Assembly: GCA_016124195.1 (NCBI GenBank)
Contig: WGOE01000001.1
Coordinates: forward strand, 62,001-126,000
Reading direction: 5' to 3'
DNA: 64,000 bases
DNA from: a bacterium
Lineage (GTDB): Bacteria > Pseudomonadota > Alphaproteobacteria > Rhodobacterales > Rhodobacteraceae
Under the pieces are notes generated by a model. That model was not told the DNA's origin and did no database searches. It saw nothing but the letters and a program-made list of their open reading frames with translations. Of this stretch, positions 1-21,561 are shown piece after piece (the first letter of the stretch is position 1; the number at the start of each line of letters is the position of its first letter). The position numbers and the translations under genes are program-made.

Positions 1-883
1 CCCGAAGGTATTCGGCCGCAGAATCAATGGGGTGTCGTGCGATCAGCTCGAAAAGTTTGCGGTATTGTTCGATCATCGCCTCGTCACGCGGCAATCCGAG
101 GGCGATCAGGGCGCGGTTGACGGCAGACAGCAGTAAACGGTTCGCCCGGATCAGTTCGACCAGCGACGTGTTTGTTGCCTGCGCGATGCACAATTCCATC
201 AGGGCATTGGACAGGGTTTCAGAGCCGACCGAAGGGTCAGTACCGATACGCAGCAGCAGATCCTCTACTTCCGGATAGCGGATTCGCGGTGCGGCCTGAC
301 GCAGGGCGGCCGGCTCGAGGATGCTCGAAAGCTCAAATTTTTCGCGTAATGTACGCGCCGTGAGCGGTCCTGCAATCCAGTGAGAGCTGGCGCTCTTGCG
401 GATCAGGCCCTTTTCCTGCAGCCGGGCCAGGACATCGCGCGCCACGGTGCGGCTGACGCCGAGGTAATCGGCCAGTTCCGTCTCGACGATTCGGAACTCA
501 CCGAAGATCTGGCAGGTCGCCACCTCTTCTTCGACCCGGTCATAGACGTGCCGCCAGGTACCCCGCGTCTGCAGAGCGTCGTCCACCTGCTCGGGGATAT
601 CCAGCGGAAGCTCGCGGATGTCGCGACGCAAGGGGGTCAGGGTGGTGCCGCCGTGGCCCACCAGGTAGCCGCGTCCCTCGAACCGATGGATCAGCCGCTC
701 CTCCAGCAGTTGGCGCAGGGCGGCCTGAACCGGAACGCGGCTGGTCTGCATGATCGTGGCTATCGGTCCCTCCAGCAGGACGAAGCCTTCGGGCAGGTTG
801 CCGCGCATGATGTTGTCGCGCAGGACACGGGCGATCAGTTCGTAACGCGGCTCTCGGGCAAGAGGATTGTCGGCGCGAATCAT
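1..883 (-). CDS. GntR-family regulator with two tandem winged-helix domains (partial)
   Basis: A DNA-binding transcriptional regulator that reads from an ATG at 883 off the left edge; 294 codons are visible. Residues about 12-76 form one GntR-type winged helix (RYELIARVLRDNIMRG, then SRVPVQAALRQLLEERLIHR). Residues about 110-170 form a second one (TWRHVYDRVEEEVA, then GVSRTVARDVLARLQEKGLI). An alpha-helical FCD-like ligand domain follows from about residue 175 (LREKFELSSILEPAALR). Normal GntR proteins have one winged helix, so the duplication is unusual. The start ATG overlaps the TGA of the upstream solute-binding-like gene (ATGA), so it is the last visible gene of the catabolic operon and probably senses a substrate or intermediate of that pathway. 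The effector is unknown. Confidence 0.85.
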   Translation of the reverse strand, partial: MIRADNPLAREPRYELIARVLRDNIMRGNLPEGFVLLEGPIATIMQTSRVPVQAALRQLLEERLIHRFEGRGYLVGHGGTTLTPLRRDIRELPLDIPEQVDDALQTRGTWRHVYDRVEEEVATCQIFGEFRIVETELADYLGVSRTVARDVLARLQEKGLIRKSASSHWIAGPLTARTLREKFELSSILEPAALRQAAPRIRYPEVEDLLLRIGTDPSVGSETLSNALMELCIAQATNTSLVELIRANRLLLSAVNRALIALGLPRDEAMIEQYRKLFELIARHPIDSAAEYLR

Positions 884-2109
884 GCCGCGGTCTCCTCGCG
901 CAGGCTGCGGGCGAAGCGGTCCCAGGCGCGGGCGACGTAGTTGTATTCGTCCATCACCGTGTTCCAGATCGCGATCCGCCGCGCGCGCTCGGCGTAAGAG
1001 CCGCCCGCCCGCCGGGCGCCGGCCTTGACCGCGATCTGCCCCGACGGGCCCAGAAGATCCCGGCTCGCCACAGCGCCATCGTACCAATAGCCCCATTCCT
1101 CAGCCGAAAGATGTGCTTTGGCGCGCGCCAGGTTCGAGATGTAGTAGCCCTGCCGCGCCATGACCGCGCCGGCGTGACCCGACAGCCACCAGTTGAGGTA
1201 TTCATAAGCCATGTCCAGCTCAGCCCCGCGCAGGTGGCGCGACAGGCTGGCCCCGCCATGCCAGGCGCGATAACCCTCGACCGGGTCAGCCTCGACAAAG
1301 TGGGCATGGGTGGCGCCGGTGCGGGCATAGACCGGGGCCCACATGCTTTGGGCTGCAACCTCGCCCCCCTCGACCAGCGCCGCAGCCTCGGCCGCATCGC
1401 TCCAGATGGTCTTGAAATAGCCCTGCGCGCGGCGCTCCTCCAGGATGGACATCAGCCGGTTGATCTCGGCAATGGACATGTTGGCGATGTCGTCGAATTC
1501 CATCTCGCCGGCAGCCTCGACCGAGAGGGCCGCGTCGAAGATGCCAATGGCCGGCTCGTCCACCAGCGCGATGCGCCCGCGTGCCCGGCGATCGAGCAGC
1601 CAGGACCAGCTGACCCGCTCTTTCGCGCCGCCGAAAACGCGGATGTCATAGCCGAAGCTGTCCATGTTGTGGACCGTCGGCAGCATCGAGATCATGCGCT
1701 GCGGCTTCGGCCCCAGAAAGCCGCCGGGCTGGACATAAAGCTTCTTGACCGGCGCATCGCCATGGCCGCGCCAGGCATATTTGCTGATGCCGCCCTGCCG
1801 GGCCAGATCGCTGATGTTGTCCCATTCCGCGATGCGCTGGCTGTCAATTGGCTGCAACGCGCCCCAGAACCACACGATATCAAGGTTATGTAAGCATTGT
1901 TCGTAAACGTCGTAGCCGCCCGGGTCCTGGGCAGCGCGGCGCTGGCAGTCGGGAAAGGACAAAAGCTCGGTCGCCACTTCGAAGCCCAGATCGGCCTGCG
2001 CCGCCCGCGTCACCTCTGGCAGGAGCGTGATCGAGGTGCCCAGCACCCGCAGCCGCCTTTGAAGCAGCCGGGGCGGGGCGGCAAGATCGCTGCGGGGGGC
2101 GGTGTTCAT
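880..2109 (-). CDS. Solute-binding-protein-like protein without signal peptide
   Basis: A 409-residue protein resembling periplasmic binding proteins of polyamine/iron-type ABC transporters. It begins its first beta strand at about residue 18 (RRLRVLGTSITLLPEVTRAA) and has the late two-domain pattern ending in TVMDEYNYVARAWDRF. No hydrophobic signal peptide, lipobox or twin-arginine motif is visible at the N terminus, and no permease or ATPase gene lies beside it. It may therefore be cytoplasmic, or a start further upstream was missed. The ATG at 2109 has an AAAGGA Shine-Dalgarno, which supports the short N terminus. It follows pxpC by 39 bp and overlaps gntR by 4 bp, so it belongs to the lactam operon and probably binds the same ligand. 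Confidence 0.7.
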   Translation of the reverse strand: MNTAPRSDLAAPPRLLQRRLRVLGTSITLLPEVTRAAQADLGFEVATELLSFPDCQRRAAQDPGGYDVYEQCLHNLDIVWFWGALQPIDSQRIAEWDNISDLARQGGISKYAWRGHGDAPVKKLYVQPGGFLGPKPQRMISMLPTVHNMDSFGYDIRVFGGAKERVSWSWLLDRRARGRIALVDEPAIGIFDAALSVEAAGEMEFDDIANMSIAEINRLMSILEERRAQGYFKTIWSDAAEAAALVEGGEVAAQSMWAPVYARTGATHAHFVEADPVEGYRAWHGGASLSRHLRGAELDMAYEYLNWWLSGHAGAVMARQGYYISNLARAKAHLSAEEWGYWYDGAVASRDLLGPSGQIAVKAGARRAGGSYAERARRIAIWNTVMDEYNYVARAWDRFARSLREETAA

Positions 2110-2148
2110 GGGCTATGTCCTTTGTGCTGCCTGCGCCGCTTCCTCCGG

Positions 2149-3120
2149 TCAGGACAGGTGGGCGGCGATGCGGTACAGGACCCCGCGCCGTTCCGCCCGC
2201 GCGGCCAGTGCCTCTTCCATCGTCACCTTCACGAACCGTGTCGGCGTATGGGGCTGCAACTGGCCGATCAGGTCCATGTCCGCGGAAATCACGGTGCCGA
2301 CCATGAAATAGCCGCCTCCGGACACCGCGTCACGGTGCAACACGATGGGTTCCGTCCCGCCCGGCACCTGGACCGAGCCATAGGGGTAGCAGGCGTCCAC
2401 GATGTTCGACGGGTCGGACCCCGCGCCGAAGGGCTGTTCGCGCGGGTTGAACTCCAGCGCGGTGCCGCCCTTGAAGCGATAGCCGATGCGGTCGGCCTCG
2501 GGCGCGACCTTCCAGGTGTCGTCGAAGAAGCGGTGGCCTGCGGCCTCGGTGATGCGGTGCCAATAGAGGCCCGGCAGCATCCGCAGTTCCGCCGGCTGGC
2601 CCGGCTTGCGGCGCAGGGCTTCCGGCAGGGTCCGCCCCGCCGCCACCACGGCGCCCTGCCCGAGCGGCAGTTCGTCCCCGGCGGCGAGCTTGCGCCCCTG
2701 ATGCCCGCCCAAGGCGCCAAGCGCATAGGTTGACCGCGACCCCAGCACCACCGGCACGTCAAAGCCCCCGGTCACCGCCAGATAGGCCCGCGCCCCGCCT
2801 TTCAGGAAGGCGAAGGACAGGACCTGCCCCTTCTTGACCGGGAAAGAGGTCCAGAGCGGCTGTTCCACGCCGTCCACCTTGGGCGGCAGATGCGCGCCGG
2901 TCACGGCAACCGTCGCGTCCTGGGTGAATTCCAGCTCCGGCCCGGCAAAGACGATCTCCAGCACCGCGGCACCGGCCGGATTGCCGACCAGCAGATTGGC
3001 CGCCGTCAGCGACAGCAGGTCCATACCGCCCGAAACCGGGATGCCGATGTGATAGTAGCCCGGCCGCCCCTGATCCTGCACGGTGGTGGAAAGCCCGGGT
3101 TTGACAACCTTAACGCCCAT
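2149..3120 (-). CDS. pxpC: PxpC / AHS2-type carboxyltransferase-fold subunit
   Basis: A 323-residue member of the biotin-dependent carboxyltransferase / 5-oxoprolinase subunit C family (allophanate hydrolase subunit 2 fold). Hallmarks are the start VVKPGLSTTVQDQGRPGYYH, the GAHLPPKVDG turn, the GGARAYLAVTGGFDVPVVLGS block and the C-terminal GTVISADMDLIGQLQP segment. In 5-oxoprolinase, PxpB and PxpC form the ATP-using part that acts with PxpA; in urea carboxylase the same folds make the carboxyltransferase domain. The ATG at 3120 was chosen because GGAGG lies 7 bases upstream and residue 1 then fits the family; the gene overlaps pxpB by 11 bp. Because a biotin carboxylase and a biotin carrier lie upstream, a true carboxyltransferase role is plausible. 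Confidence 0.88.
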   Translation of the reverse strand: MGVKVVKPGLSTTVQDQGRPGYYHIGIPVSGGMDLLSLTAANLLVGNPAGAAVLEIVFAGPELEFTQDATVAVTGAHLPPKVDGVEQPLWTSFPVKKGQVLSFAFLKGGARAYLAVTGGFDVPVVLGSRSTYALGALGGHQGRKLAAGDELPLGQGAVVAAGRTLPEALRRKPGQPAELRMLPGLYWHRITEAAGHRFFDDTWKVAPEADRIGYRFKGGTALEFNPREQPFGAGSDPSNIVDACYPYGSVQVPGGTEPIVLHRDAVSGGGYFMVGTVISADMDLIGQLQPHTPTRFVKVTMEEALAARAERRGVLYRIAAHLS

Positions 3121-3985
3121 CGAGAGCCTCCATGATCCTGCGGTTGCTGGCGTCGATGTCCTTCTGGAACTCGGCCAGCGAGAAGGTGACCGGCGCGATG
3201 CGCGGGCTCCAGCGGCCGGCATCGACCTCGGCGACGATATGGTCGTATTCGGCACGATCGACCGGCTTCCACTTGACGATGTCGCCGGGTTTGAACAGGC
3301 ACATGAAATCGCGCAGGTAAGGCGTCGTCTGGTTCGGGTCGTAGATCGGCATCGGCGTGATCCCGAACATCTGGTAGCCACCCGCCCCGCGCACCGAATA
3401 GATGCAGGCAAAGCAGCCGCCATGGCCCACGGTCAGCCGCGGCGTATCGGTGCGCGGGCGCAGGTATTTCGGCGACTGGATCTGCCGCGAGCGGTCCACC
3501 ATCTGGTACAGGAACGGAAGGCCCGCCACGAACCCCACCATCGACACGAACCACGGCGCGCCGGAATGGGCCTTGATGAAGCCGTCGATCCCGTCCAGCC
3601 CGTTGATCCGTGCGGTGTATTCTATGTCGGTCGAGGTCGGGTCCTGATGCCGCTCGCGGAACTTCATCAGGGTTTCATGGGTCCAGGGGTCGTTGTAGAG
3701 GACCGGCACCTCGATGATGCGGGTATCCAGAACCGAGGGCGCCGATTGGGCCGCCGCCTCCAGCCGCTTCAGTTCCGCCAGCATCGCATCGGGTGCGATC
3801 ACGTCGGGGTCGAAGCGGACCTGAAAGCTGGCGTTCGCCGGGCAGATTTCGGTCACGCCCTTGATATTCGCCTCTTTCAGGGCGGTCGTGATCGACATGC
3901 CCTTGAAGAAGGCCTCCAGCGACATTTCCTCGTCGCATTCGACGAAGATATGCTCGTCGCCGCCGAAACTGTATCGGGTCTTCAT
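3110..3985 (-). CDS. pxpB: PxpB / AHS1-type subunit
   Basis: A 291-residue protein of the 5-oxoprolinase subunit B / allophanate hydrolase subunit 1 family. The cyclophilin-like core is recognisable from APWFVSMVGFVAGLPFLYQM, GHGGCFACIYSVRGAGGYQMFGITP and the C-terminal FKPGDIVKW. It is longer than the usual PxpB of about 220 residues, with extra sequence of about 60 residues at the N terminus and in the middle (HQDPTSTDIEYTARINGLDG). The start overlaps the biotin carboxylase stop by 4 bp (ATGA) and has AAGGAG upstream. It would pair with the product of pxpC. Confidence 0.85.
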   Translation of the reverse strand: MKTRYSFGGDEHIFVECDEEMSLEAFFKGMSITTALKEANIKGVTEICPANASFQVRFDPDVIAPDAMLAELKRLEAAAQSAPSVLDTRIIEVPVLYNDPWTHETLMKFRERHQDPTSTDIEYTARINGLDGIDGFIKAHSGAPWFVSMVGFVAGLPFLYQMVDRSRQIQSPKYLRPRTDTPRLTVGHGGCFACIYSVRGAGGYQMFGITPMPIYDPNQTTPYLRDFMCLFKPGDIVKWKPVDRAEYDHIVAEVDAGRWSPRIAPVTFSLAEFQKDIDASNRRIMEALDGR

Positions 3986-5355
3986 TCCGCGATCTCCTTG
4001 GAAAGACGGGGAGCGTTTTCTTCCAGCCAGGGTTCCAGCCAGCGGGTGTGGAACGCGGCCTTGGCCACGCCTTCGTCCCGGACCAAAGCCTGATGCAGCG
4101 GTTTGGTGGTTGGCAGGCCGCCGACCTGCAATTCATCGAGCGCGCGGGCCATGCGGGCGAGGGCTGCGGGCCGGTCCTCGTCCCAGACGATCAGCTTGCC
4201 CAGAAGCGAATCGTAGAAGGGCGGCACGGTGTAGCCCTGATACAGCAGCGTATCGAAGCGCACCCCCGCCCCGCCCGGCACCGTCAGGGACGAGATCGTG
4301 CCCGGACCGGGCTTGAAGCCCTGCGCCGGGTCCTCGGCATTGATCCTGACTTCGATGGCATGGCCGCGCAGGTGGATATCTTCCTGCCGATAGCGCAGCG
4401 GTTCCCCGCCCGCGATGCGGATCATCTCGCGCACCAGATCCAGCCCCGTGACCATCTCTGTCACCGGATGTTCTACCTGAATCCGGGTGTTCATCTCGAT
4501 GAAGTAGTAATGGCCAGAGATGTCGTCATAGAGGAATTCCAGCGTCCCCGCCCCGCGATAGTTGACCGCCTCGGCCAGGGCGACGGCAGAAGCGCAGAGT
4601 TTGGCGCGCAGTTCGGGCGACAGCGCGGCAGAGGGTGCTTCCTCCCACACCTTCTGGCGGCGACGTTGCAGGGAACATTCGCGTTCGAAGCAATGGATCG
4701 CGCGCGTGCCGTCGGCCAGCACCTGCACCTCGATATGGCGCGCGCGTTCGATGACCTTCTCCAGATAGAGCCCCCCGTCGCCGAAGGCGGCCTTGGCCTC
4801 AGCGCTGGCCTGCGGCATCAGGCGGTCGAATTCATCCATGTCATGGGCGATGCGGATACCGCGCCCACCGCCACCGGCTGCCGCCTTGATCATCACCGGG
4901 AAGCCGATCGCGAGCGCGATGGCCCTGGCATGGGCGGGGTCATCCACCCGCCCGTCACTGCCCGGCACCACCGGCACACCCGCCGCTTCCGCCGCGATCC
5001 GCGCCGCCACCTTGTCGCCCATCACCCGGATCGCATCGCCCGAAGGCCCGCACCAGATCGGCCCGGCCGCCACCACGGCATCGGCGAAATCGGCATTCTC
5101 GGCCAGAAAGCCATAGCCCGGATGCACGGCATCGGCGCCGGTATCCGCCGCAGCTTTCAGGATCGCTGCAATGTTCAGATAGGATTTGCTCGCCGCCGGA
5201 GGGCCGATCAGCACGGCCTCGTCCGCCATCTTCACAGCCAGGCTGTCGGCATCGGCGCTGGAATGGACCTGCACCGTGGCAAGGCCCAGCTCTTTCGCCG
5301 CGCGCTGGATGCGCACCGCAATCTCGCCCCGGTTGGCAACCAGAAGCTTCTGCAT
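3982..5355 (-). CDS. Biotin carboxylase (AccC-like), operon-specific
   Basis: A 457-residue ATP-grasp biotin carboxylase, the standard length of AccC. It starts MQKLLVANRGEIAVRI, has the ATP-binding glycine loop KAAAGGGGRGIRI, the bicarbonate/biotin region ECSLQRRRQKVWEEAPS, and the catalytic EMNTRIQVEHPVTEMVTG. It should carboxylate the biotin on the small carrier encoded just upstream, using ATP and bicarbonate. The start was set at 5355 because it shares one base with the carrier's stop codon (TGATG). No acetyl-CoA carboxyltransferase gene is nearby, so this is probably a pathway-specific carboxylase working with PxpB/PxpC, not the fatty-acid enzyme. Confidence 0.9.
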   Translation of the reverse strand: MQKLLVANRGEIAVRIQRAAKELGLATVQVHSSADADSLAVKMADEAVLIGPPAASKSYLNIAAILKAAADTGADAVHPGYGFLAENADFADAVVAAGPIWCGPSGDAIRVMGDKVAARIAAEAAGVPVVPGSDGRVDDPAHARAIALAIGFPVMIKAAAGGGGRGIRIAHDMDEFDRLMPQASAEAKAAFGDGGLYLEKVIERARHIEVQVLADGTRAIHCFERECSLQRRRQKVWEEAPSAALSPELRAKLCASAVALAEAVNYRGAGTLEFLYDDISGHYYFIEMNTRIQVEHPVTEMVTGLDLVREMIRIAGGEPLRYRQEDIHLRGHAIEVRINAEDPAQGFKPGPGTISSLTVPGGAGVRFDTLLYQGYTVPPFYDSLLGKLIVWDEDRPAALARMARALDELQVGGLPTTKPLHQALVRDEGVAKAAFHTRWLEPWLEENAPRLSKEIAE

Positions 5356-5588
5356 CAGCCGAGTTCCACCAGCGGCTGGCCCGCCATCACCGGCTCTTCG
5401 TCTTCGGCGTGAAAAGCGGTGATCGTGCCGGCTTCCTCGGCCGTCACCTCGTTGAAACTTTTCATCACCTCGATCAGGCCGATCACATCGCCCACCGCCA
5501 CCGCATCGCCCACGTTCTTGAAATTGGGCTGATCGGGAGAAGGCTTGCGATAGAAGGTGCCGGGCAGCGGAGACAGGATCTGGGACAT
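5355..5588 (-). CDS. Small biotin carboxyl carrier-like protein
   Basis: A 77-residue biotinyl-domain protein, half the size of AccB because it lacks the N-terminal linker. It is almost only the biotinyl fold: SPLPGTFYR at the start, GLIEVMKSFNEV around the modified lysine (Lys43), and a final GQPLVELG. The usual motif around the lysine is E-A-M-K-M; here it is E-V-M-K-S. The ATG at 5588 has AAGGA upstream. It sits 12 bp after pxpA and overlaps the biotin carboxylase by one base, so the two are probably made in equal amounts and form one carboxylase. Confidence 0.87.
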   Translation of the reverse strand: MSQILSPLPGTFYRKPSPDQPNFKNVGDAVAVGDVIGLIEVMKSFNEVTAEEAGTITAFHAEDEEPVMAGQPLVELG

Positions 5589-5600
5589 GGGGATTCCTTT

Positions 5601-6320
5601 TCAGTTGATCGAACGCACGGCGGCGCGGACGGCCTCTGCCACCGCCACGGCGTTCGGAGTGTCGGAGTGGACGCAGATCGCATCGGCCCGCACGGCCACA
5701 TCGACCCCGCCCACCGAGGTCACCTTGCCTTCGCGGATGGCGCGGAGGCAAGCGGCCGCGGCCTTGTCCGGGTCGGTCGGTGCGTGTTCGCGGGTGATGA
5801 TCAGCCCGCCCGCGTCGTTGTAGTCAAGGTCGGCGTAGAATTCCGACACGAACTGGTGTCCGCGCGCGGTGTAGATGGTTTCGTGCAGCGTGCCCGCCAT
5901 GCCGTAAAGCGGTACCTTGAAGATGTCGGCCACGTCGCAGATCGCGTGGGCCACCTCCTCCATCCGCGCGGCCATGCCGTAAAGGCTGCCATGCGGCTTG
6001 ATGTGGTTCAGCGCGACACCCTCGGCCTGAAGGAAGCCCTTCAACGCGCCGATCTGGTAGATCATGCAGTTGACCAGCTCCTCGCGGCCGATCTTCATCT
6101 CGCGCCGGCCAAAGCCCTGCAGGTCGGGCAGCGAGGGATGGGCGCCGACCTTCACCCCCTGCGCCTTGGCCAGCTTCACTGTGTTCGCCATGTGGTTGAA
6201 GTCCGAGGCGTGAAAGCCGCAAGCCACATTTGCCACGTCGATCAGGGGCATCAGCCCGGCATCGTCGCCGATGCGGTAGAGGCCGAATCCCTCGCCCATG
6301 TCACAGTTGATGATCGTCAT
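5601..6320 (-). CDS. pxpA: 5-oxoprolinase subunit A-like (LamB/YcsF family)
   Basis: A 239-residue LamB/YcsF-family protein, a little shorter than E. coli PxpA. Family hallmarks are INCDMGEGFGLY at the N terminus, NVACGFHASD, GAHPSLPDLQGFGRR, the NHIKPHGSLYG block and the late DAICVHSDTPNA. In 5-oxoprolinase this subunit works on the lactam once PxpB/PxpC have activated it with ATP. The gene starts on the base next to the hyuA stop codon, and its GGAGG ribosome site lies inside the hyuA end, so translation is probably coupled. The natural substrate may be 5-oxoproline or another lactam. Confidence 0.9.
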   Translation of the reverse strand: MTIINCDMGEGFGLYRIGDDAGLMPLIDVANVACGFHASDFNHMANTVKLAKAQGVKVGAHPSLPDLQGFGRREMKIGREELVNCMIYQIGALKGFLQAEGVALNHIKPHGSLYGMAARMEEVAHAICDVADIFKVPLYGMAGTLHETIYTARGHQFVSEFYADLDYNDAGGLIITREHAPTDPDKAAAACLRAIREGKVTSVGGVDVAVRADAICVHSDTPNAVAVAEAVRAAVRSIN

Positions 6321-8399
6321 TCAGACCTCCGCATCCAGAACATAGACACCCGTTTCCTCCAGTATGGCGGTCCAGTCCGGTTCGATCACGATGGTGGTGG
6401 TGATCTCCTCGATCACGGCCGGGCCGATGATCTTGTCCCCCGCCCCCATCAGCGCCCCGTTATAGACCGGCGTATCCTGCGCGGTGCCATCGGCGGCAAA
6501 GATCATCGGCCGAGTCCCTTTCAGTGCGGCGTGGGCGCCCCGGCCCGCCGCGACCGACATGCGTTTCGGCTTGTCGACCTTGCCCCAGATGGCGCTTTCG
6601 ATGTTGACGACCTCTACCATGCTTTGCCGCTCGGAATAGGTGTAAAGTTCCTCGTGGCGGGCGTGGAACGCGGCCTTGAGCTTTTCCAGCGCAGCCTCGT
6701 CCAGATCGAAGGGATCCACGTCCACGGTGCATTCATGGACTTGGCCCACATAGCGCATGTCGAGGCTGCGGCGGATCTGCACCCGGTCGGGGCCGAAGCC
6801 GTCGCTGGCCAGGTCCTTCACGCCGCGCGCCTCCAGGCCCTTGAACAACTTGTCCAGCCTGGCCGCGGCCTCGGCGCCTTCAAGACGCACGGGGGCGGGG
6901 GCCATGTAGTTGTATTTGACGTCGGAGATGATCTGGCCATAGGCGCAAAGACCCGAGGCGAGTTTCGAGACCAGCACCTTGCGGATGCCCATTTCCCGCG
7001 CCAGCGCAGTGATATGCGCCCCGGTGGCACCGCCCGCACAGTTCAAGACGAAGTCGCGCGGGTCATAGCCGCGTTCGACCGAAACGCGGCGGATCGCGTT
7101 CACCATGTTGTTGTTGACAATGGTGAACATGCCGAAGGCCGCGGTTTCCACGCTGATGTTCAGCGGTTTGGCCAGATGCGTCTCGATCGCCTTGCGCGCC
7201 TTGGCTACATTCAAGGGCAGTCGCCCGCCCACCAGACCATCGGGATTGAGGTAGCCGAGGATCAGGTTGGCATCGGTCGTCGTCGGCCTCTCGCCGCCCT
7301 GGTCATAGCAGGCCGGCCCGGGGTCCGAGCCCGCCGATTGCGGACCCATCTGCAACAGACCCATGCTGTCGATCCAGCCGATCGACCCGCCACCCGCGCC
7401 CAGCGTTTCGACCTGGATCATCGGGATGCCGATGCGATAGCGCAGGAAGTCGATGTTCTTGGACACATTCGCCCGGCCATCCCGCGTCAGCGTGATGTCG
7501 AAGGAGGTGCCGCCCATGTCCACCGTGATGATGTCCTTGAAGCCCCAGGGCTCACCCAGGTACAGCGCCGCCTGCGGGGCCGAGGCGGGGCCCGAGTTGA
7601 TCGCATAGACCGACTGGTCGCTGACGACCGACCCCAGCGCCAGACCGCCGTTGGACTGGAAATAGCGCACCGGATGACGCGAGCCGAGCGACTGGAAATA
7701 GCCGTCCACCGCCTCGACATAGGCGGACAGGATGGGCGCGAGGTAGGCGTTCACGATGGCGGTCGAGGTGCGGGTATATTCGCGCACCTGCGGGTAAAGC
7801 TGGCTGCCCACGGTCAGGCGGACATGCGGCATCATCTCGCGCACGATTTCGGCGGCGCGGGTTTCGTGTTCGGGATGCAGGACCGACCAGACGAAGCTGA
7901 TGGCCACCGACTCGACGCCTTCGCGCAGGAAGTGCCGGCAGGCCTCGCGGACGTCATCCTCGTTCAGGGGCGTGTGGACGGCACCGGTCGAGATCACCCG
8001 TCCGCGAACGCCGCGGCGCAGGTAGCGCGGCACCAGCATGGTGGCCGGCGGGTATTCCGGATCGTAGCGGTAGCCGTCTTCCTTGTGGCCAAGGCGGATC
8101 TCGATACTGTCCTCGTGCCCCCTGGTGGCGATCAGGCCGGTCAGCGCGCCCTTGTGCTGGATCAGCGCGTTCAGGCCGACCGTAGTACCATTGATGCACA
8201 GGTCGGATTGCGAGGCGATGTCGCGGGCTGTGATGCCGGTCTCTTCCTCGATCAGGGCAAGGCCGTTGCGGATCGCCAGCGTCGGGTCCTGCGGGGTCGA
8301 AAGCGCCTTGAAGATGCGCACCTCGCCATCGCGGTCGGCCAGGATGAAGTCGGTGAAGGTGCCGCCGGCGTCGATGCCCAGGCGATATTTGTTCTGCAT
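6321..8399 (-). CDS. hyuA: Hydantoinase/oxoprolinase subunit A (pair 1)
   Basis: A 692-residue ASKHA-fold subunit of the ATP-dependent hydantoinase/oxoprolinase family. It has the N-terminal phosphate loop RLGIDAGGTFTDF, the second phosphate loop TVDMGGTSFD, and GPACYDQGG and the INNNM-type block expected in the family. It needs HyuB to hydrolyse a cyclic amide with ATP. The start at 8399 is preferred over upstream codons because the protein then begins directly before the phosphate loop. It lies 82 bp after hyuB, with a GC-rich repeat hairpin in the gap, and directly abuts pxpA. It is clearly less similar to the two other HyuA proteins in the window than they are to each other. Confidence 0.9.
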   Translation of the reverse strand: MQNKYRLGIDAGGTFTDFILADRDGEVRIFKALSTPQDPTLAIRNGLALIEEETGITARDIASQSDLCINGTTVGLNALIQHKGALTGLIATRGHEDSIEIRLGHKEDGYRYDPEYPPATMLVPRYLRRGVRGRVISTGAVHTPLNEDDVREACRHFLREGVESVAISFVWSVLHPEHETRAAEIVREMMPHVRLTVGSQLYPQVREYTRTSTAIVNAYLAPILSAYVEAVDGYFQSLGSRHPVRYFQSNGGLALGSVVSDQSVYAINSGPASAPQAALYLGEPWGFKDIITVDMGGTSFDITLTRDGRANVSKNIDFLRYRIGIPMIQVETLGAGGGSIGWIDSMGLLQMGPQSAGSDPGPACYDQGGERPTTTDANLILGYLNPDGLVGGRLPLNVAKARKAIETHLAKPLNISVETAAFGMFTIVNNNMVNAIRRVSVERGYDPRDFVLNCAGGATGAHITALAREMGIRKVLVSKLASGLCAYGQIISDVKYNYMAPAPVRLEGAEAAARLDKLFKGLEARGVKDLASDGFGPDRVQIRRSLDMRYVGQVHECTVDVDPFDLDEAALEKLKAAFHARHEELYTYSERQSMVEVVNIESAIWGKVDKPKRMSVAAGRGAHAALKGTRPMIFAADGTAQDTPVYNGALMGAGDKIIGPAVIEEITTTIVIEPDWTAILEETGVYVLDAEV

Positions 8400-8424
8400 G
8401 GTCAGGTCTTTCCTGCTTCCGGAA

Positions 8425-8480
8425 GCCGGGGGGCGCCTGCCCCCCGGACCCCCCGGGGATATTTGAGCCAAAATGAAAGG
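8425..8480 (+). repeat. Rhodobacteraceae GC-rich hairpin repeat, copy 1
   Basis: A hairpin of the pattern GCCGGGGGGCGCCTGCCCCC followed by a second C/G block and GGGGATATTTGAGCCAAAAT, read on the plus strand. It fills most of the gap between hyuB and hyuA. A second copy at 34837-34887 on the minus strand has the same order of parts: G-rich arm, CTGCC turn, CCGGACC, GGGATATTT, a CAAA-type run and ATGAAAGG. This motif is familiar from the ends of genes in Rhodobacteraceae. Here it lies antisense to the operon, so it may weaken rather than stop transcription between hyuB and hyuA. Confidence 0.75.
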
Positions 8481-8481
8481 G

Positions 8482-10230
8482 TCAGGCGGCGCGCAGTTTC
8501 GCGGTGGCGGCGTGATCGACGGTCAGCGTCGCCGCGTCGGCGATCACCACCCCATAGTCGCGGCGCGCGCCTTCCAGGCTGACAAGGCCGTTGCGGATAT
8601 CCTCGACCACCCTCTGCACATCGCGTTCGAAGGCCTTGCCATAGCCACCGCCGCCAGGATTCTTGTTGGCGGCGCGCTCGCCGGGCTGGATCGTCTCGAT
8701 CACGTTTTCGGTGATGATCTTGGTCTCGCCGCCCCGGGTCAGTTCAAGCCGGCCGACCTTGGGCGCGATCATGTCGGATTTCGCGCCGGCCGCACCCATT
8801 GCCGGGATGCGGCGGCCTTCGCCGAAGGTGATCAGGGTCATCGGCGTGTCAAGCGGTTCGACCTCCCAGCAGGTGCCCGATCCGCCGCGGAACTTGCCCG
8901 CGCCGCCTGAATCTTCCATCAGGCCGTAGCGGTGGATGATGATGGGATAGGAGTGTTCCAGCATCTCGATGTCACCCGAGGTCAGCGCGCCGAAGCAGCA
9001 TTCCGGCCCGCAGGCGTGCCAGCCGTCCTGGCTGGAGGTGGCCCCCGCGCCCGAGATGATCGAGGCCAGCACCATGGTCACGTATTCCTCGTCGTGGCGC
9101 TTGTCCCAGCCGGCAATGTTGCAGCCGTTGGCATGGCCCCAGGAAGCCGAGACCTTGGCCGGCACCGCCTGTTCGAAGGCAAGGCGGACGGCGTCGGTCA
9201 GCGTCTCCATCGGCGTCGTGGTGCAGTTCATGTGCGGCGCGGGGGATTTCGCGTTGCACAGCGTGCCCTTCGGCCCCATGTCGGTGCTGACGCAGCGGTA
9301 GAGCCCCTCGTTATAGGGCGGGGGCAGCTGGGCGAACATCATCAGGCCAAGGTAGACGCCGGAATGGCTGTTCCCTTCATAGCTGTTGATGAAATAGGGG
9401 ATCTGCGGCGGCGAGGCGATGGCGATGTGACAGCTGTCGCCCTTGATGGTGACGGTCGCCGTGATGTCGAAATCACCATAGCCGTGGCCGGCATCTTCCA
9501 GAATCGCGGTGCCGGTGTAGGTGCCGTCGGGCACCTGGGCGATCAGGCTGCGCATGTGGTGCTCGGCCATGTCCAGCAGTTCAGCGATGCAAAGCTGAAC
9601 GGTGTCCTTGCCGTATTTGTCCATCAGCCGTTTGAGGTTGCGCGCGCCGACCTGGCAGGCGCCAATCAGGGCTTTGAAATCGCCCTCCTGGTCGCGGCGG
9701 GCGCGCATGTTGGACAAAAGGAGGTTCATCACGTCATGGCGCGGCTTGCCCTTGTCCCAGATCTTCAGGGGCGGGATCACCAGGCCCTCGGCATAGATCT
9801 CGGTCGCGTTGGGGTTGTAGCCGGCGGGCACCGGGCCGCCGATGTCGGTCAGGTGGCCCTTGCAGACCGTCCAGAACACCAGTTCACCTTCGTAGTACAC
9901 AGGCATGTACATGCAGGTGTCGATGATATGGCTGCCGCCATAGGCCGGGTCATTGTGCAGGATCAGGTCGCCGTCGTGGATATCGTCTGCAAAAAACCTT
10001 GCGACCGACTTCATCGCCGGGATCAGGCTGCCCAGGTGGATCGGGATGTCCTGGCCCTGCAGGATCATTTCCGGCGTGTGGTTGAACAGCGCCGTCGAAT
10101 AGTCATGCGCCAGGTTGAAGACCGAGGAACGCGCGGTCTGTTCCAGCGTCAGGGTCATTTCGCGCTGCGTCGTCTCCAGCACGCCGCGCACGACCGAGAG
10201 GGTGATCGGGTCAACGTTTCTTGTGGTCAT
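8482..10230 (-). CDS. hyuB: Hydantoinase/oxoprolinase subunit B (pair 1)
   Basis: A HyuB-family subunit of 582 residues. Family features are the start VDPITLSVVRGVLETTQREM, HTPEMILQGQDIPIHLGSLI, the metal/active-site region DLILHNDPAYGGSHIIDTCM, and the C-terminal GGGGYGKAFERD. It forms the heteromeric ATP-dependent cyclic amidase with the HyuA downstream. The ATG at 10230 is preferred over one at 10245: the latter sits on top of the GGAGG that is correctly spaced for 10230. It is the first gene of a nine-gene operon; the 284-bp region upstream is shared with the divergent AraC regulator and contains a 16-bp perfect palindrome. Confidence 0.9.
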   Translation of the reverse strand: MTTRNVDPITLSVVRGVLETTQREMTLTLEQTARSSVFNLAHDYSTALFNHTPEMILQGQDIPIHLGSLIPAMKSVARFFADDIHDGDLILHNDPAYGGSHIIDTCMYMPVYYEGELVFWTVCKGHLTDIGGPVPAGYNPNATEIYAEGLVIPPLKIWDKGKPRHDVMNLLLSNMRARRDQEGDFKALIGACQVGARNLKRLMDKYGKDTVQLCIAELLDMAEHHMRSLIAQVPDGTYTGTAILEDAGHGYGDFDITATVTIKGDSCHIAIASPPQIPYFINSYEGNSHSGVYLGLMMFAQLPPPYNEGLYRCVSTDMGPKGTLCNAKSPAPHMNCTTTPMETLTDAVRLAFEQAVPAKVSASWGHANGCNIAGWDKRHDEEYVTMVLASIISGAGATSSQDGWHACGPECCFGALTSGDIEMLEHSYPIIIHRYGLMEDSGGAGKFRGGSGTCWEVEPLDTPMTLITFGEGRRIPAMGAAGAKSDMIAPKVGRLELTRGGETKIITENVIETIQPGERAANKNPGGGGYGKAFERDVQRVVEDIRNGLVSLEGARRDYGVVIADAATLTVDHAATAKLRAA

Positions 10231-10514: not shown

Positions 10515-11498
10515 ATGGCTGTCAGCCGTTTCACCACCGACGACTACCGCGGCGCGGCGCGGGCGGATCACTGGAATGCCGTCATAGCGGACGCCTATTT
10601 CCCGCTCGACCTGACCTTCCGCGACGCCTCCGCCTTTTCCGGCCGGCTTGAGATGCAGCAGGTCGGGGTCGTGTCGCTGTCGCGGCTGCAAACTCAGCCC
10701 GTGCAATATGAACGCCACCGCCGCCACATCGCCGGCGCGCCGGAAGAGCAATACCTCATCACCATTCCGCGCCAGGCTCCGGTGGAGTTCTACCAGCTCG
10801 GCCGCGAGGTGCGCTGCGATCCGGGCGGCTTTCTGCTGGAACGCGGCGACGAGCCCTATCGGTTCGCCTACAGCAGCGCGAACGACCTTTGCGTGCTCAA
10901 GGTGGCAAAATCGCATCTTGCCGACAAGCTGCGCAGCCCGGATCGCTATTGCGCGCAGGTGTTCAACGGGCGCGAGGGGATCGGCAGCCTGTTCACCACG
11001 ATGGCACAGCAGATCCACGCGCAGGCGCCCGAGGCGGGGAACGCCGCCGTGCTGGGCCGCCACCTGATCGAACTGCTGGCGCTCGCGCTTGACAGCGGCT
11101 CGGACGTGCAGGGCGGGGCGGGGTCCAGCGTGCGGGCGGCGCATCTGCACCGGGCCGAGGAGACGATCCGCAAGAACCTGGCCAATCCCAACCTGTCGCC
11201 CGAAGCGGTGGCCGAGGCGATCGGAATTTCCAAACGCTATCTGCATGAACTTTTCGCGGGCGAGAACATGACCGTCTCTCAGTTCATCCGCGAGCAGCGT
11301 CTTCAGGCCGCCCGCGACTTGTTGCAGATGCCCAACCCCGGCCCGATGTCGGACATCGCCTATCGCTTCGGCTTTGCCGATCAGGCGCAGTTCTCGCGCC
11401 TGTTCAAGGCGATGTTCGGCCAGACGCCCACGGGCTACCGGGCCTCTGTTCTGGATCAGGGCAGCGGCCACTCCGGATCCTCAAGCCCCATCGGATAG
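10515..11498 (+). CDS. AraC-family transcriptional regulator
   Basis: A 327-residue regulator. The N-terminal 200 residues look like the AraC-binding-like effector/dimer domain (DHWNAVIADAYFPLDL, QYLITIPRQAPVEFYQLGRE). The C-terminal 100 residues carry the double helix-turn-helix, with AVAEAIGISKRYLHELF as the first and DIAYRFGFADQAQFSRLFKAMFGQTP as the second. The ATG at 10515 is placed 9 bases after AGGGG; an ATG at 10506 is in frame but too close to it. The gene is divergent from the lactam operon, which it most likely activates. Its last 43 bp overlap the convergent flavin oxidoreductase gene. Confidence 0.9.
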   Translation: MAVSRFTTDDYRGAARADHWNAVIADAYFPLDLTFRDASAFSGRLEMQQVGVVSLSRLQTQPVQYERHRRHIAGAPEEQYLITIPRQAPVEFYQLGREVRCDPGGFLLERGDEPYRFAYSSANDLCVLKVAKSHLADKLRSPDRYCAQVFNGREGIGSLFTTMAQQIHAQAPEAGNAAVLGRHLIELLALALDSGSDVQGGAGSSVRAAHLHRAEETIRKNLANPNLSPEAVAEAIGISKRYLHELFAGENMTVSQFIREQRLQAARDLLQMPNPGPMSDIAYRFGFADQAQFSRLFKAMFGQTPTGYRASVLDQGSGHSGSSSPIG

Positions 11499-12637
11499 TG
11501 CAGCCCGAAGTCCAGCGGCGGCTGGATGACGTATTTCCGGTCGAAGGGCAGCCAGTCGTAGGGCTGGCCAGACCGCACGATATAGGGCCAATCGGGATGG
11601 GCGAAGATCGGCCGGCCCACCGCCACCACATCGGCCGCGCCGCAGGTCAGGGCTTCTTCCGCTGCGGGGCCGTCGGCGATGCCGCCGTTGCAGATCATCG
11701 GCAGGCCCGATGCCTCGCGCAGGACGGCGGCCATGGGCCGGTCCGAGTTCGGGTCGCGATTGTCCTTCCAGTTGAAGGACGCCCAATGCAGCGCGTCATA
11801 GGCCGAGCCCTTTAGCGCAGCGCCCACGGCCCGCGCATAGTCCACCCCGCCCGGCCAGGCCCCCACAAAGTCATCGACCCCATCCTGGCTGAGGCGCAGG
11901 ACGATCAGCTTGTCGGGGCCGATGGCCGCGCGGACCTTCTCGCCCACCAGACGGGGGAAGCGAAGGTTGTTCTCGGGGCTGCCGCCGAATTCATCGGTGC
12001 GCAGGTTGGTCTTGGGCGTGATGAACTGCCACAGCAGATAGCCGTTGGCGCCGTGAACCTCGACACCGTCAGCGCCGGCCTCGACCGCGCGCCGGGCACC
12101 TTCGGCAAAACCATCGGCCACGGCATGGAGTTCAGCCACCGTCAGGGCGCGCGCCGGCGGAAAGGTCACCTTGGGCCAGGGGCCGGCGATGTTGCGGATC
12201 TGCTTTTCGTAGTCGGTGTCGGTGTAAAGCGTCCAGCCCGGGCTTTGCGTCGCGCTGGCCGAGACGCCGGGCTGACCATTCAGGCAGCGCGGATCGCTGA
12301 CCCGTCCGCCGTGCATCAGCTGGATGATGATCTGCGCGCCTCTGGCATGGACCGCATCGCAGACCTGCTTCCAGCCCTCGACATGCGTGGCATTGGCGAT
12401 GCCGGGCTGCGACAGGTAGGCCCGGCTCTGGAAGGTGTCCTGCTCATAGGTGCCTTCGGTGATCACAAGGCCCAGCCCGCCACGGGCGCGACGACCGTAA
12501 TAGGCGGCCATCTCGTGGGTTGGCGTGCCGTCGGCATGGGCCATCTGCCGGGTCAGGGGCGCCATGGCGATGCGGTTGCGCAGGGTCAGCGGGCCCAGCT
12601 TCACGGGCGATAACAGGGTCGGGAAGGCTTCGGCCAT
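11456..12637 (-). CDS. NADH:flavin oxidoreductase, Old Yellow Enzyme family
   Basis: A 393-residue FMN-dependent oxidoreductase with a TIM barrel. It shows the start LLSPVKLGPLTLRNRIAMAP, the substrate-binding IIIQLMHGGRVSD, GADGVEVHGANGYLLWQFI, GGSPENNLRFPRLV, the phosphate-binding ICNGGIADG and DVVAVGRPIFAHPDW. It would reduce an activated double bond or act as a dehydrogenase on a cyclic substrate. The gene follows the hyuB of pair 2 by 25 bp in the same direction, so it is probably co-transcribed, and its product may prepare an unsaturated ring for hydrolysis. The stop overlaps the convergent araC end. Confidence 0.88.
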   Translation of the reverse strand: MAEAFPTLLSPVKLGPLTLRNRIAMAPLTRQMAHADGTPTHEMAAYYGRRARGGLGLVITEGTYEQDTFQSRAYLSQPGIANATHVEGWKQVCDAVHARGAQIIIQLMHGGRVSDPRCLNGQPGVSASATQSPGWTLYTDTDYEKQIRNIAGPWPKVTFPPARALTVAELHAVADGFAEGARRAVEAGADGVEVHGANGYLLWQFITPKTNLRTDEFGGSPENNLRFPRLVGEKVRAAIGPDKLIVLRLSQDGVDDFVGAWPGGVDYARAVGAALKGSAYDALHWASFNWKDNRDPNSDRPMAAVLREASGLPMICNGGIADGPAAEEALTCGAADVVAVGRPIFAHPDWPYIVRSGQPYDWLPFDRKYVIQPPLDFGLHYPMGLEDPEWPLP

Positions 12638-12662: not shown

Positions 12663-14438
12663 TCAGGCGGCGCGCATCGTGGCGCGCAGGCGTTCGGTGG
12701 CCGGCAGGTCAAGGCCCCAGCCGTAGCCGTTGTTCACTGGCTGGAAGACCACCCCATAGACCTCGCGGGCGTGGTCTGGCGTGATGTAGCCGTCCAGCAG
12801 ATCGTCCAGAACCTTGCGCGGATCGCGCTTCAGCGGGTCGCCGAAACCGCCGCCGCAGGGCGAGAGATAGGTCACCACATCGCCCGTCTCGGCCCGCATG
12901 CCAGAGAACTTGGCATCGACCTCGCGCATCGCGCCGCCGGTCTCGTCATTGTGGATGCGCACGCGCGCCACGGCCCCTTCGTGGCCGCCGAAGATGCCCC
13001 AGGGCACATCCTCGTTGCGGTCGCTTTCGTGCGTCATGAAGCCGGGCGTCAGGAAGCGCTGCGACTTGACGACGCCCATGCCGCCACGGAACTCGCCCGC
13101 GCCGGGGAACACATCGTCACGCACCTCGTAGCGGTCGCAGATCATCGGCAGGTGCATGCCGAGGTCTTCAAGCGGGTTGTTGCGGGTGTTGCGCATCAGC
13201 TCTTCGATCGTGTCGGGGCCGTCGCTGTGCGGCCGCCCGCCCATCGCAGCCTCGTTCACCTCGATCAGCACCCAGTAATTGCCGTCGTCGCGCACACCGG
13301 AATAGCTGGCGAAGGACAGGCAGGCCGCATTCCCCGCCGTGCATTGGTCGGGCAGGACCGGGGCCAGTGCCTTGATGATCAGGTCGACGACGCGCTGGAT
13401 CTGGTTGAACCGCGCCTCGCAACTGGCCGGGGCGATGGGGTTGAAGATCGACCCCAATGGCGCCGTCACCTTCACAGGGCGGAAGGACCCTTCGTTCTGC
13501 GGGATGTATTCCGCGTTGGTGTAGGTATCCAGCAGAAGGGCCCGGAAGGCGAAATAGCAGGCGACCTTGGTCGACCCCTCGAAGGGCACGTTGAAGGCCG
13601 TGGGCACCTGCGGCGAGGAGCCGGTCAGGTCCACCTCGACATCGTCGCCGCGCACCCGCACCGTTACCTTGATCGGCAGCCGCTTGCCCCGCGTGCGGCC
13701 GTCGTCGTCCATGAAGCCCTCGGCCGTGTAATCGCCATCCGGGATCTTCGCGATCTCGCGGCGCAGCATCCGCTCGGAATAGTCCATCAGCTGGGCAGCG
13801 GCCTGTTCGACCACGTCCCGGCCATAGGTGTCCATCAGGTCGCAATACCGCCTGACGCCCAGTTCGGCCGCCGCGATCTGCGCCTCGAGGTCGCGCATCA
13901 CCAGCCCCGGCACGCGGGTGTTTCCGCTGATGTAGCGCCAGAGCGTGTCGTTGCGGACGCCCGCCTCGTAAAGCTTCAGCCCGTTCAGAAGCATCCCTTC
14001 GGCGAAGACGTCCGGCACGTCGATGATCAGACCGGGCGTCGCGGCGCCGATGTCCAGGTGGTGGGCGGTGTTGGCAGAAAAGCCCACCAGCTCGCCACGA
14101 TAGAAGATCGGCATGACGATGCCGATGTCCGGCGAATGGCTGGCGCCGAAATAGGGGTGGTTGTGGATGGCGACATCGCCAGGCTTCCAGGCGTCGCGCG
14201 GGATGCTCTTCTCGATCCCGCGCAGATAGCCGGGGATCGAGCCGATGTGCATCGGGGTGGAATCGCTTTCGCAGAGCGTATTGTAGGCCAGGTCGAACAG
14301 GCCCGCGCCAAGGTCCTGGCTTTCGCGGATGATCGAGGAATAACTCATCCGGTACAGAACGTTGCCCATCTGCTCGGCGATGGCATGCAGCGCGCCGCCG
14401 ATGACCTGCAACGTGATCGGATCGATGGTCTTGGCCAT
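12663..14438 (-). CDS. hyuB: Hydantoinase/oxoprolinase subunit B (pair 2)
   Basis: A 591-residue HyuB. It starts MAKTIDPITLQVIGGALHAI, has ESQDLGAGLFDLAYNTLCES, DVAIHNHPYFGASHSPDIGI and the GGGFGDPLKRDP C-terminal glycine loop. It is strongly similar along its whole length to the HyuB of pair 3 (for example VDLTGSSPQVPTAFNVPFEG against VDLTGSADQTPTAYNVPFEG). The ribosome site AAGGAG overlaps the stop codon of the hyuA upstream, so the pair is translationally coupled. The substrate is a five-membered cyclic amide, unknown in detail. Confidence 0.9.
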   Translation of the reverse strand: MAKTIDPITLQVIGGALHAIAEQMGNVLYRMSYSSIIRESQDLGAGLFDLAYNTLCESDSTPMHIGSIPGYLRGIEKSIPRDAWKPGDVAIHNHPYFGASHSPDIGIVMPIFYRGELVGFSANTAHHLDIGAATPGLIIDVPDVFAEGMLLNGLKLYEAGVRNDTLWRYISGNTRVPGLVMRDLEAQIAAAELGVRRYCDLMDTYGRDVVEQAAAQLMDYSERMLRREIAKIPDGDYTAEGFMDDDGRTRGKRLPIKVTVRVRGDDVEVDLTGSSPQVPTAFNVPFEGSTKVACYFAFRALLLDTYTNAEYIPQNEGSFRPVKVTAPLGSIFNPIAPASCEARFNQIQRVVDLIIKALAPVLPDQCTAGNAACLSFASYSGVRDDGNYWVLIEVNEAAMGGRPHSDGPDTIEELMRNTRNNPLEDLGMHLPMICDRYEVRDDVFPGAGEFRGGMGVVKSQRFLTPGFMTHESDRNEDVPWGIFGGHEGAVARVRIHNDETGGAMREVDAKFSGMRAETGDVVTYLSPCGGGFGDPLKRDPRKVLDDLLDGYITPDHAREVYGVVFQPVNNGYGWGLDLPATERLRATMRAA

Positions 14439-14441
14439 GGC

Positions 14442-16538: not shown

Positions 16539-16556
16539 TTTGGCCTCCTGATCCAT

Positions 16557-16884
16557 GGCGCAACAAGGCCGCGCCCGATATCAGAGTGCGTTGGAACCTC
16601 CGAGGCAAGAACAGCGATTTGCATGCACCAGCCATATGGAAAACCTATGGCCGGGCCGATGACCGCCGCATAAGCCAACAAAACAACAAGTTCAGCCGTC
16701 ATGAGACCCGAAAAAATTGATTGATGTGCGCAATAAGCTGACAGATTGCCCATAAACGCCGCGCGCGATGTCTGCCCGAAACCGTGGCAAAGGCCGCGAA
16801 TCAAGGGGCACGGAACCTGCCTCGCGGCATGATTGCGTGACCCATGCCGGTCTGGCTTGGGCCTTTGAACTTGATTGCCGCCCC
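16557..16884. other. Gene-free promoter region between hyuAB pairs 2 and 3
   Basis: These 328 bp separate two gene pairs transcribed in the same direction. The base composition is lower in GC than its neighbours, and it holds the 19-bp dyad at 16632-16650. A short minus-strand reading frame through it, continuing into hyuA, has no family likeness and no good ribosome site. The region therefore looks like an independent promoter for hyuAB pair 2 and the flavin oxidoreductase. No terminator with a T tract is evident. Confidence 0.5.
16632..16650. promoter_or_regulatory. LysR-type operator candidate upstream of hyuA pair 2
   Basis: CCATATGGAAAACCTATGG is a dyad CCATA-N9-TATGG. It contains the T-N11-A core typical of LysR-family boxes. 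It lies about 95 bp upstream of the chosen hyuA start. Either of the two LysR proteins encoded further on could bind it; this is inference. Confidence 0.4.
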
Positions 16885-18669: not shown

Positions 18670-18682
18670 GGTCTTGGTCTCC

Positions 18683-20761: not shown

Positions 20762-20838
20762 TTTTCTCTCCTGTTGGTTCATGCGCCTCTGACGGGCGGG
20801 AATGAGCGCCGGACCGGGTTCGGACCGGCGCGGGTCCG

Positions 20839-21561
20839 TCACTCGGCAGCCAGCCGGTGCGCCGCGAGGCCGTCGATATAGGCCACGCACTCGTCGACGC
20901 TGTGCACGTCACCGAACTTGGCGTCGATGTCGAAGAGGTTCCACGCCACCGCACCCGGTACGCGGTCCCCGATGCACTCCCGGACCGCGATGGTGCGGAA
21001 GCCGTCCGCGAGGCCGTCGCAGATCGTCTGACGCACGCAGGCGCAGGCCGTCACGCCGGTGACGAGGATCGTGTCCACATTGCCGGCACGCAGGATGCCC
21101 GCCAGTTCGGTCCCGTGGAACGCGGACGCCCGCTTCTTCAGCAGGGTATATTCCCCCTCGACCGGGGCGATGCGGCTGTCGATGGCCCAGAGATCCTTGT
21201 CCTTGAGGTTCACCACCTCGACCGGGATCTTGCTGTGCCACAGGCCCATGTCGGTGAAGTCGGCGTCCCGGTCGGTGATCTCGTAGGCCGTGGTCACATG
21301 CACGACCGGAAGGCTCGCGGCGCGGAAGGCTTTGAGCAGCTTCTGCATGCCGGGGATGATTTCATTGTCCATCTTCTCCTGATCGCAGGTGAAGGGATTG
21401 CCCGGGCGGGTCCAGGCGTTGGCAAGGTCCACACTGACCAGCGCGGGGCGCCGGCCAAAGCCGACACGGCGCTGAAAGCCGCGTTCCCGATACAGTTTGC
21501 TTGCGGTGTCGAAGGCCTGCTGCAGCAGCCGGTCCAGCTCTCTGGTGTCAACGTCGCTCAT
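20839..21561 (-). CDS. N-carbamoylsarcosine amidohydrolase-like cysteine hydrolase
   Basis: A 240-residue isochorismatase-fold hydrolase. From memory of the Arthrobacter N-carbamoylsarcosine amidohydrolase, whole stretches match nearly residue for residue: VDLANAWTRPGNPFTC, DMGLWHSKIP, KKRASAFHGT, ECIGDRVPGAVAWNLFDIDA and KFGDV. The catalytic triad is visible as Asp45, Lys141 and Cys174 (ACACVRQT). It would hydrolyse N-carbamoylsarcosine to sarcosine, CO2 and ammonia. The start at 21561 has AAGGA upstream; it is divergent from a LysR gene that probably regulates it, and heads the operon with hyuAB pair 3. A related N-carbamoyl amino acid substrate is possible. Confidence 0.87.
   Translation of the reverse strand: MSDVDTRELDRLLQQAFDTASKLYRERGFQRRVGFGRRPALVSVDLANAWTRPGNPFTCDQEKMDNEIIPGMQKLLKAFRAASLPVVHVTTAYEITDRDADFTDMGLWHSKIPVEVVNLKDKDLWAIDSRIAPVEGEYTLLKKRASAFHGTELAGILRAGNVDTILVTGVTACACVRQTICDGLADGFRTIAVRECIGDRVPGAVAWNLFDIDAKFGDVHSVDECVAYIDGLAAHRLAAE

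Follow-up and report, generated by a model that had tools for sequence, protein, structure and literature searches.

The operon and its conserved five-gene unit

The window analyzed in this study, a 64,000-nucleotide stretch of a Rhodobacteraceae contig (WGOE01000001.1, positions 62,001 to 126,000), contains near its start a minus-strand operon in which genes for a LamB/YcsF hydrolase, a biotin carboxylase (BC), a biotin carboxyl carrier protein (BCCP), and two carboxyltransferase (CT) subunits lie together. A first-pass annotation of this DNA described seven nearly continuous genes in the order hyuB-hyuA-pxpA-BCCP-BC-CT_B-CT_C, and all seven were found as described. The caprolactamase-type genes hyuB (CapB type, 8482..10230, 582 amino acids) and hyuA (CapA type, 6321..8399, 692 amino acids) are separated by 82 bp and are followed, at a distance of 0 bp, by pxpA (5601..6320, 239 amino acids). 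After a gap of 12 bp, BCCP (5355..5588, 77 amino acids) overlaps BC (3982..5355, 457 amino acids) by 1 base. BC in turn overlaps CT_B (3110..3985, 291 amino acids; carboxyltransferase subdomains C/D, CT_C_D) by 4 bases, and CT_B overlaps CT_C (2149..3120, 323 amino acids; subdomains A/B, CT_A_B) by 11 bases. Apart from the 82-bp and 12-bp gaps, all genes thus abut or overlap.

Based on tblastn searches with the window's proteins, the conserved unit comprises the last five genes, pxpA-BCCP-BC-CT_B-CT_C. The 80 best of 575 GTDB matches to the CT_B protein were taken as locus set, nine of which were dropped because their flanks were too short. Among the remaining 71 loci, BCCP, pxpA, and CT_C were each present in all and BC in 70, and 67 loci showed identical order and strand. 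In three Aurantimonas/Jiella loci (L107, L108, and L122), pxpA is inverted yet nearby, and BC and BCCP are retained. Plasmid matches amounted to 581 records, 67 of them at 60–80% identity; each of the 18 annotated records inspected among the 60 matches listed contained all five genes, preceded by a divergently oriented LysR gene. Further genome samples of the class, phylum, and family yielded 45 distinct core loci, of which 39 were examined (across all locus sets, four loci occur in duplicate: L083/L207, L100/L208, L071/L220, and L124/L168). BC was found in 37, BCCP in 36, and pxpA in 38 of these 39; L222 is interrupted by a contig end, and L185 and L187 have neither BC nor BCCP. Sampling for core-type CT_B (at least 62% identity) gave 20 positives among 385 genomes of the class, 16 among 398 of the phylum (six lying outside the class), and 14 among 149 of the family; the window's own genome is counted every time, and there is slight overlap between the samples. 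The distribution is patchy, plasmid copies are fairly common, and the five-gene block recurs far more often than by chance. We conclude that this is a genuine and distinct gene set that goes by the wrong names in public records. No description of the five-gene unit was found in the open literature searched, although the papers that introduced PxpABC and the Kluyveromyces lactis urea carboxylase might mention it.

The joining of HyuAB to the other genes in one operon holds for the window, where the genes adjoin, and does not extend to the conserved unit. Among 59 loci flanked by 9 kb on either side, only 23 carried HyuAB at 60% identity or more, and it was rejected as a unit member on this ground, while the nearest relatives (L046–L054) have kept it. 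Here, HyuB scored 1110.8 bits against NCBIfam model NF050157 and HyuA 1218.5 bits against NF050156 (cut-off 1000 for each); HyuA also matched PDB entry 6yra over residues 3–688 (832.6 bits). Two more HyuAB pairs, below the caprolactamase cut-offs, are encoded upstream on the operon's strand (12663–20890), accompanied by a gene for an old yellow enzyme-type flavoenzyme (11456–12637).

Carboxyltransferase, carboxylase, and hydrolase

The two transferase subunits had initially been named PxpB and PxpC, an identity that the model scores contradict. CT_B (PF02682) reached 122.8 bits against the urea carboxylase model TIGR02712 and 72.3 bits against the PxpB model TIGR00370, below the cut-off of 145.55. 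CT_C (PF02626) passed the broad 5-oxoprolinase/urea-amidolyase domain model TIGR00724 (252.2 vs. 230.2) and failed the PxpC equivalog NF045499 (225.7 vs. a cut-off of 500). The other parts scored 221.1 (CT_C), 496.3 (BC), and 22.1 bits (BCCP) against TIGR02712; its single-chain cut-off of 1303.85 is not reached, the genes being separate. In alignments with the K. lactis urea carboxylase (PDB 3va7), CT_B shares stretches with it that are missing from PH0987, KipI (2zp2), and the chains of PDB entry 9yx5. Likewise, CT_C, which contains a PSxxxDxxY segment, shares stretches with it that are missing from YbgK and from the 9yx5 chains, which we take to be mycobacterial.

Signature columns, in which core and urea carboxylase sequences agree and canonical PxpBC differ, were picked on 81/79 core, 10 urea carboxylase, and 21 canonical sequences. 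They comprise 33 residues, 13 in CT_C and 20 in CT_B (Q55, D99, E111, R112, P116, I127, N128, V153, R165, R167, K173, Y174, T179, G187, C194, G200, Y204, Q205, F207, and F268). By construction, the groups are separated in CT_B (core 18–20, urea carboxylase 18–20, canonical 0–2 of 20) and in CT_C (core 7–13, urea carboxylase 12–13, canonical 0–2 of 13). In 53 core rows outside the column choice (58 loci, from which four duplicates and one intermediate-group member were excluded), 17–20 of 20 CT_B and 11–13 of 13 CT_C residues were retained, the canonical rows being the original 21. Rows of the intermediate group retained 11–13 of 20 and 8–9 of 13, respectively. In a tree built from 60 rows of concatenated CT sequences, inferred by a quick method with 17 of 79 core sequences and showing some long branches, the 21 canonical rows split off with a Shimodaira–Hasegawa-like approximate likelihood ratio test (SH-aLRT) support of 100, and core, urea carboxylase, and intermediate group fell on the opposite side. 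By these sequence features, CT_B and CT_C are of the urea-carboxylase type. They are not PxpB and PxpC, and "PxpABC plus biotin" is therefore the wrong frame for the operon.

The proposal that a dedicated carboxylase and carrier serve these subunits gained support from the transferase type, from the near-invariant adjacency of BC and BCCP, and from the predicted biotinyl lysine (K43, in an EVMK motif), which is K in all 76 core rows. No match to either protein was found at any of 20 canonical PxpBC loci examined (9–17 kb each). A BC match occurred in 10 of 10 urea carboxylase loci, fused in frames of 1180–1550 residues, and BC and BCCP were both matched in 4 of 10 intermediate loci. BC motifs are retained in the core rows and presumably carry their usual functional meaning. 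In three records, genes for biotin synthesis or carbonic anhydrase join the cluster. BCCP (PF00364) passes NF005457/PRK07051 (122 vs. 87) and BC passes NF009471/PRK12833 (761.7 vs. 686), both models being named for acetyl-CoA carboxylase; BC lies narrowly below the accC cut-off of TIGR00514 (624.7 vs. 626.5). Elsewhere in the window's genome there are seven other places with a biotin/lipoyl domain and three other biotin carboxylases, one paired with an accB-like gene. From frame length and place, the three are taken as accC, an acyl-CoA-type carboxylase, and pyruvate carboxylase. Gene content, conservation, transferase type, and the predicted carrier lysine can be regarded as established at the level of sequence.

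The hydrolase PxpA (PF03746, 292.8 bits) has the conserved residues of canonical PxpA. It passes NF003814 (259.3 vs. 226) and NF003816 (220.2 vs. 213) and falls below three further PxpA equivalog models. A canonical pxpABC set is present in the same genome (L001, a 3.6-kb locus without biotin genes), as is urease; beyond this copy and the operon's CT_B, no CT_C_D domain was found in the genome. A CT_C_D domain of any kind was present in 101 of the 385 class genomes. Among 20 core genomes, four have a second such domain: the window's own, those of L126 and L142, whose copies were examined and are canonical, and G339, judged from score alone. A replacement of canonical PxpABC by the unit was considered and dropped, as neither avoidance nor linkage is read from these numbers.

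Nine loci (L083, L086, L088, L091, L105, L113, L115, L123, and L124) have a PxpA only 41–46% identical to that of the window, with CT_B still at 70–74%. Two PxpA types thus appear to go with one kind of transferase, perhaps for two substrates. The intermediate group (L156, L157, L158, and L160) is a distant split system of other alphaproteobacteria, including one with a 1.4-Mb genome. Its CTs are 35–40% identical to those of the window, BC and BCCP are present, and three of the four loci have PxpA (55–59%). L159 and L161–L165 hold orphan CT_B/CT_C pairs with no BC match in the examined stretch; the genomes concerned have 4 to 7 CT_C_D domains. Some of these pairs adjoin genes for 3-hydroxyisobutyrate dehydrogenase or enolase-type, BKACE, or CoA-ligase-like proteins, and possibly many transferases share one carboxylase there.

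Neighboring genes and proposed reaction

Downstream of CT_C, at a distance of 39 bp and on the same strand, lies a gene for a solute-binding-protein-like product (880..2109) with a weak YdcS-like NCBIfam match (22.6 bits) and no Pfam match; relatives occupy the same place in L046–L054. It is followed, also on the minus strand, by a GntR-type regulator (PF00392; 1..883), which starts at about 883 and runs past the window edge (open reading frame 11901–13097 of L003). Beyond the window, Pfam matches on the same strand indicate an ABC ATPase, two short-chain dehydrogenases/reductases, an amidase, a polysaccharide deacetylase with weak similarity to allantoinase PuuE (82 bits vs. a cut-off of 424.6), and a CobW GTPase. 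Two permease-like reading frames, a second binding protein, and a second ATPase are named there solely by likeness to annotated relatives.

Elsewhere, biotin genes and genes for the metabolism of gamma-aminobutyric acid (GABA) join the block in some lineages. The order in Hoeflea poritis is pxpA-BCCP-BC-CT_B-CT_C-gabT-bioB-bioF-bioD-bioA. In Rhizobium CIAT894, the five genes and a transporter precede succinate-semialdehyde dehydrogenase, carbonic anhydrase (PF00484), and bioB-F-D-A, and in Acidiphilium the block is followed by bioB. Both gabT and gabD lie within a few kb of the block in Ruegeria TM1040 and Aestuarium. Permeases annotated as "allantoin permease" stand beside the block in two plasmid records, with an NCS1 match far below the cut-off and no Pfam match; relatives occur at three more loci, and none were found in L046–L176.

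Urea carboxylase transfers biotin-bound CO2 to a nitrogen of urea, after which the carboxylated product is hydrolyzed. Our hypothesis is that the five genes encode an N-carboxylase that depends on biotin and supplies a LamB/YcsF hydrolase, in analogy to urea amidolyase but with ring opening as the outcome and with lactams as the likeliest substrate class; we assign this a probability of roughly 0.6. BC would carboxylate the biotin of the small carrier, presumably attached at K43, with the help of ATP and bicarbonate, and the split CT_B/CT_C would transfer the carboxyl group to the nitrogen of a small cyclic amide. The activated ring would be opened by the LamB/YcsF hydrolase after carboxylation, standing in for allophanate hydrolase in a carboxylate-then-hydrolyze scheme, and the N-carboxy ring-opened product would lose CO2. 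Carboxyl transfer by CT_B/CT_C is strongly suggested by their sequences, whereas the lactam is a weaker guess; we infer that a nitrogen is carboxylated, in which order the steps occur, and what the substrate is. Candidate reactions are those of 2-pyrrolidone to GABA and of valerolactam to 5-aminovalerate. As gabT/gabD-type enzymes may also act on 5-aminovalerate, both lactams are candidates. The caprolactamase-type HyuAB and the transporters would be accessory and lineage-dependent. According to PMC8453981, hydrolysis of caprolactam is unfavorable and CapAB requires ATP and bicarbonate, so an energy input of the carboxylation type would make sense.

Several observations weigh against this hypothesis. 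A quick BC tree of 31 rows, 14 of them from the 79 core sequences, places the core BC in a clade of its own, nearest to the genome's own accC-like copy (SH-aLRT 95) and not to the BC of urea carboxylases. BC and CT therefore have different histories, which the comparison with urea carboxylase does not predict. Neighbors of the gabT/gabD type were seen at 5 of 80 GTDB loci, in 3 of 18 plasmid records (one with succinate-semialdehyde dehydrogenase only), and at 2 of the 39 loci from the further genome samples (gabD alone in one of them), compared to 0 of 30 control loci; they are a minority, the control stretches are shorter, and the difference is not regarded as significant. These genes were rejected as proof of the substrate and serve as a hint only. 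Transporters vary by lineage (Pot, TorT/sugar, Liv, and NCS1-like types), and the substrate may therefore vary as well. One locus from a metagenome-assembled genome, L104, has no BC. In one genus outside the class (G596 and G695), pxpA-CT_B-CT_C occur without dedicated BC and BCCP (L185, 8712–11376; L187, 8674–11340), and these CTs retain 19 of 20 and 13 of 13 signature residues. The best BC (55% identity) and BCCP (47–48%) lie elsewhere in those genomes, as expected of accBC; this lineage either borrows accBC or does not need biotin. Finally, PDB entry 9yx5 lists an AccA3-named chain (biotin-dependent acyl-CoA carboxylase alpha3) alongside KipI/KipA-like chains that carry canonical-type motifs and appear there as allophanate hydrolase subunits 1 and 2. 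No paper on this entry was found in the literature searched. Biotin use may therefore extend beyond the urea-carboxylase-type signature. The KipI/KipA fold might even be a carboxybiotin-using carboxyltransferase in general, with the five-gene unit having its own carboxylase, L185/L187 and canonical PxpABC borrowing the housekeeping one, and LamB/YcsF ring opening powered by N-carboxylation instead of phosphorylation. We consider this wider view unlikely; PMC8453981 reports that co-purified PxpB and PxpC hydrolyze ATP, which counts against it.

A unit of the same layout could instead be a biotin-dependent 5-oxoprolinase converting 5-oxo-L-proline to glutamate. This would agree with the subfamily score and conserved residues of PxpA, and with the 16 of 20 core genomes (the window's own and 19 others) that have no second CT_C_D domain and therefore no canonical PxpB. 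The window's genome, however, already has canonical PxpABC, the CTs are of the other type by signature and tree, and some neighbors suggest GABA-type amino acids, NCS1-like permeases, and caprolactamase-type HyuAB, so that we regard a 5-oxoprolinase as rather unlikely. More doubtful still is a split urea or guanidine carboxylase, in which CT_B/CT_C act on urea and another amidase finishes the reaction. The transferase signature, the name "allophanate hydrolase" in several public records, and a related SAR11/HIMB59 cluster guessed to act on urea in PMC10308929 would fit it. Yet pxpA is an invariant partner (71/71), urease is present in the genome, and the amidase beyond the window scored 171.9 against an allophanate hydrolase cut-off of 511, a result from that locus and not from a genome-wide search.

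That CT_B/CT_C and PxpA work independently of biotin, with BC and BCCP serving another step of the pathway, would account for the genus without dedicated carboxylase genes and for L104. We consider it very unlikely given the near-invariant adjacency of BC and BCCP, which persists in L107, L108, and L122 despite the inversion of pxpA, the urea-carboxylase-type CT signature, and the accBC-like genes from which the exceptional genus could borrow. Least credible appears a carbon-acid or acyl-CoA carboxylase, as implied by the annotation "acetyl-CoA carboxylase". BC and BCCP do pass models so named, BC groups with an accC-like copy, and distant orphan CT pairs lie near 3-hydroxyisobutyrate dehydrogenase, BKACE, and enolase-type genes. 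On the other hand, no acyl-CoA carboxyltransferase family was matched, the CTs matching only CT_A_B/CT_C_D and the urea-carboxylase/Pxp models, an accC-like gene with an accB-like partner exists separately in the genome, and PxpA comes from what we take to be an amide-hydrolase family.

Comparison with known systems

If the five genes do encode an N-carboxylase coupled to ring opening, unreactive ring amides could be opened in a third way, in addition to those of the HyuAB-type enzymes and of canonical PxpABC, and urea-type biotin chemistry would reach a new acceptor. The public names "acetyl-CoA carboxylase", "allophanate hydrolase", and "5-oxoprolinase" would then need correction for this set. 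Because the pair to be compared is present in one genome, ATP use by PxpBC-like proteins is directly testable.

With urea carboxylase/amidolyase (K. lactis, 3va7 and 5i8i; TIGR02712), the unit shares the combination of BC, carrier, and CT_A_B/CT_C_D, the CT signature and side of the tree, and a hydrolase acting, by our hypothesis, after carboxylation. It differs in being divided into four proteins where urea carboxylase is a single chain of about 1200 residues, in its LamB/YcsF hydrolase, in the low identity of its CT_B to bacterial urea carboxylases (about 30%), and in a BC of another clade. Canonical PxpABC (YbgJK, KipI/KipA type) has the same conserved PxpA residues and CT families; unlike the unit, it falls on the opposite side in the CT tree, lacks the urea-carboxylase-type residues and inserts, and had no BC or BCCP match nearby in the 20 loci examined. 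The ATP-dependent lactamases of the caprolactamase CapAB (6yra)/HyuAB type are represented in the window by HyuAB, which passes both NCBIfam cut-offs. They differ from the five-gene unit in protein families and ATP site and are its optional neighbors. A gene cluster of Pelagibacterales/HIMB59 with FArhodopsin is mentioned in passing, with a guessed urea function, in PMC10308929; L157, with CTs 37–38% identical and from a 1.4-Mb genome, is tentatively taken to be of this kind. Judged by its parts, the five-gene unit appears to be a variant of the urea-carboxylase kind which, on the features tested, belongs neither to urea carboxylase itself nor to PxpABC.

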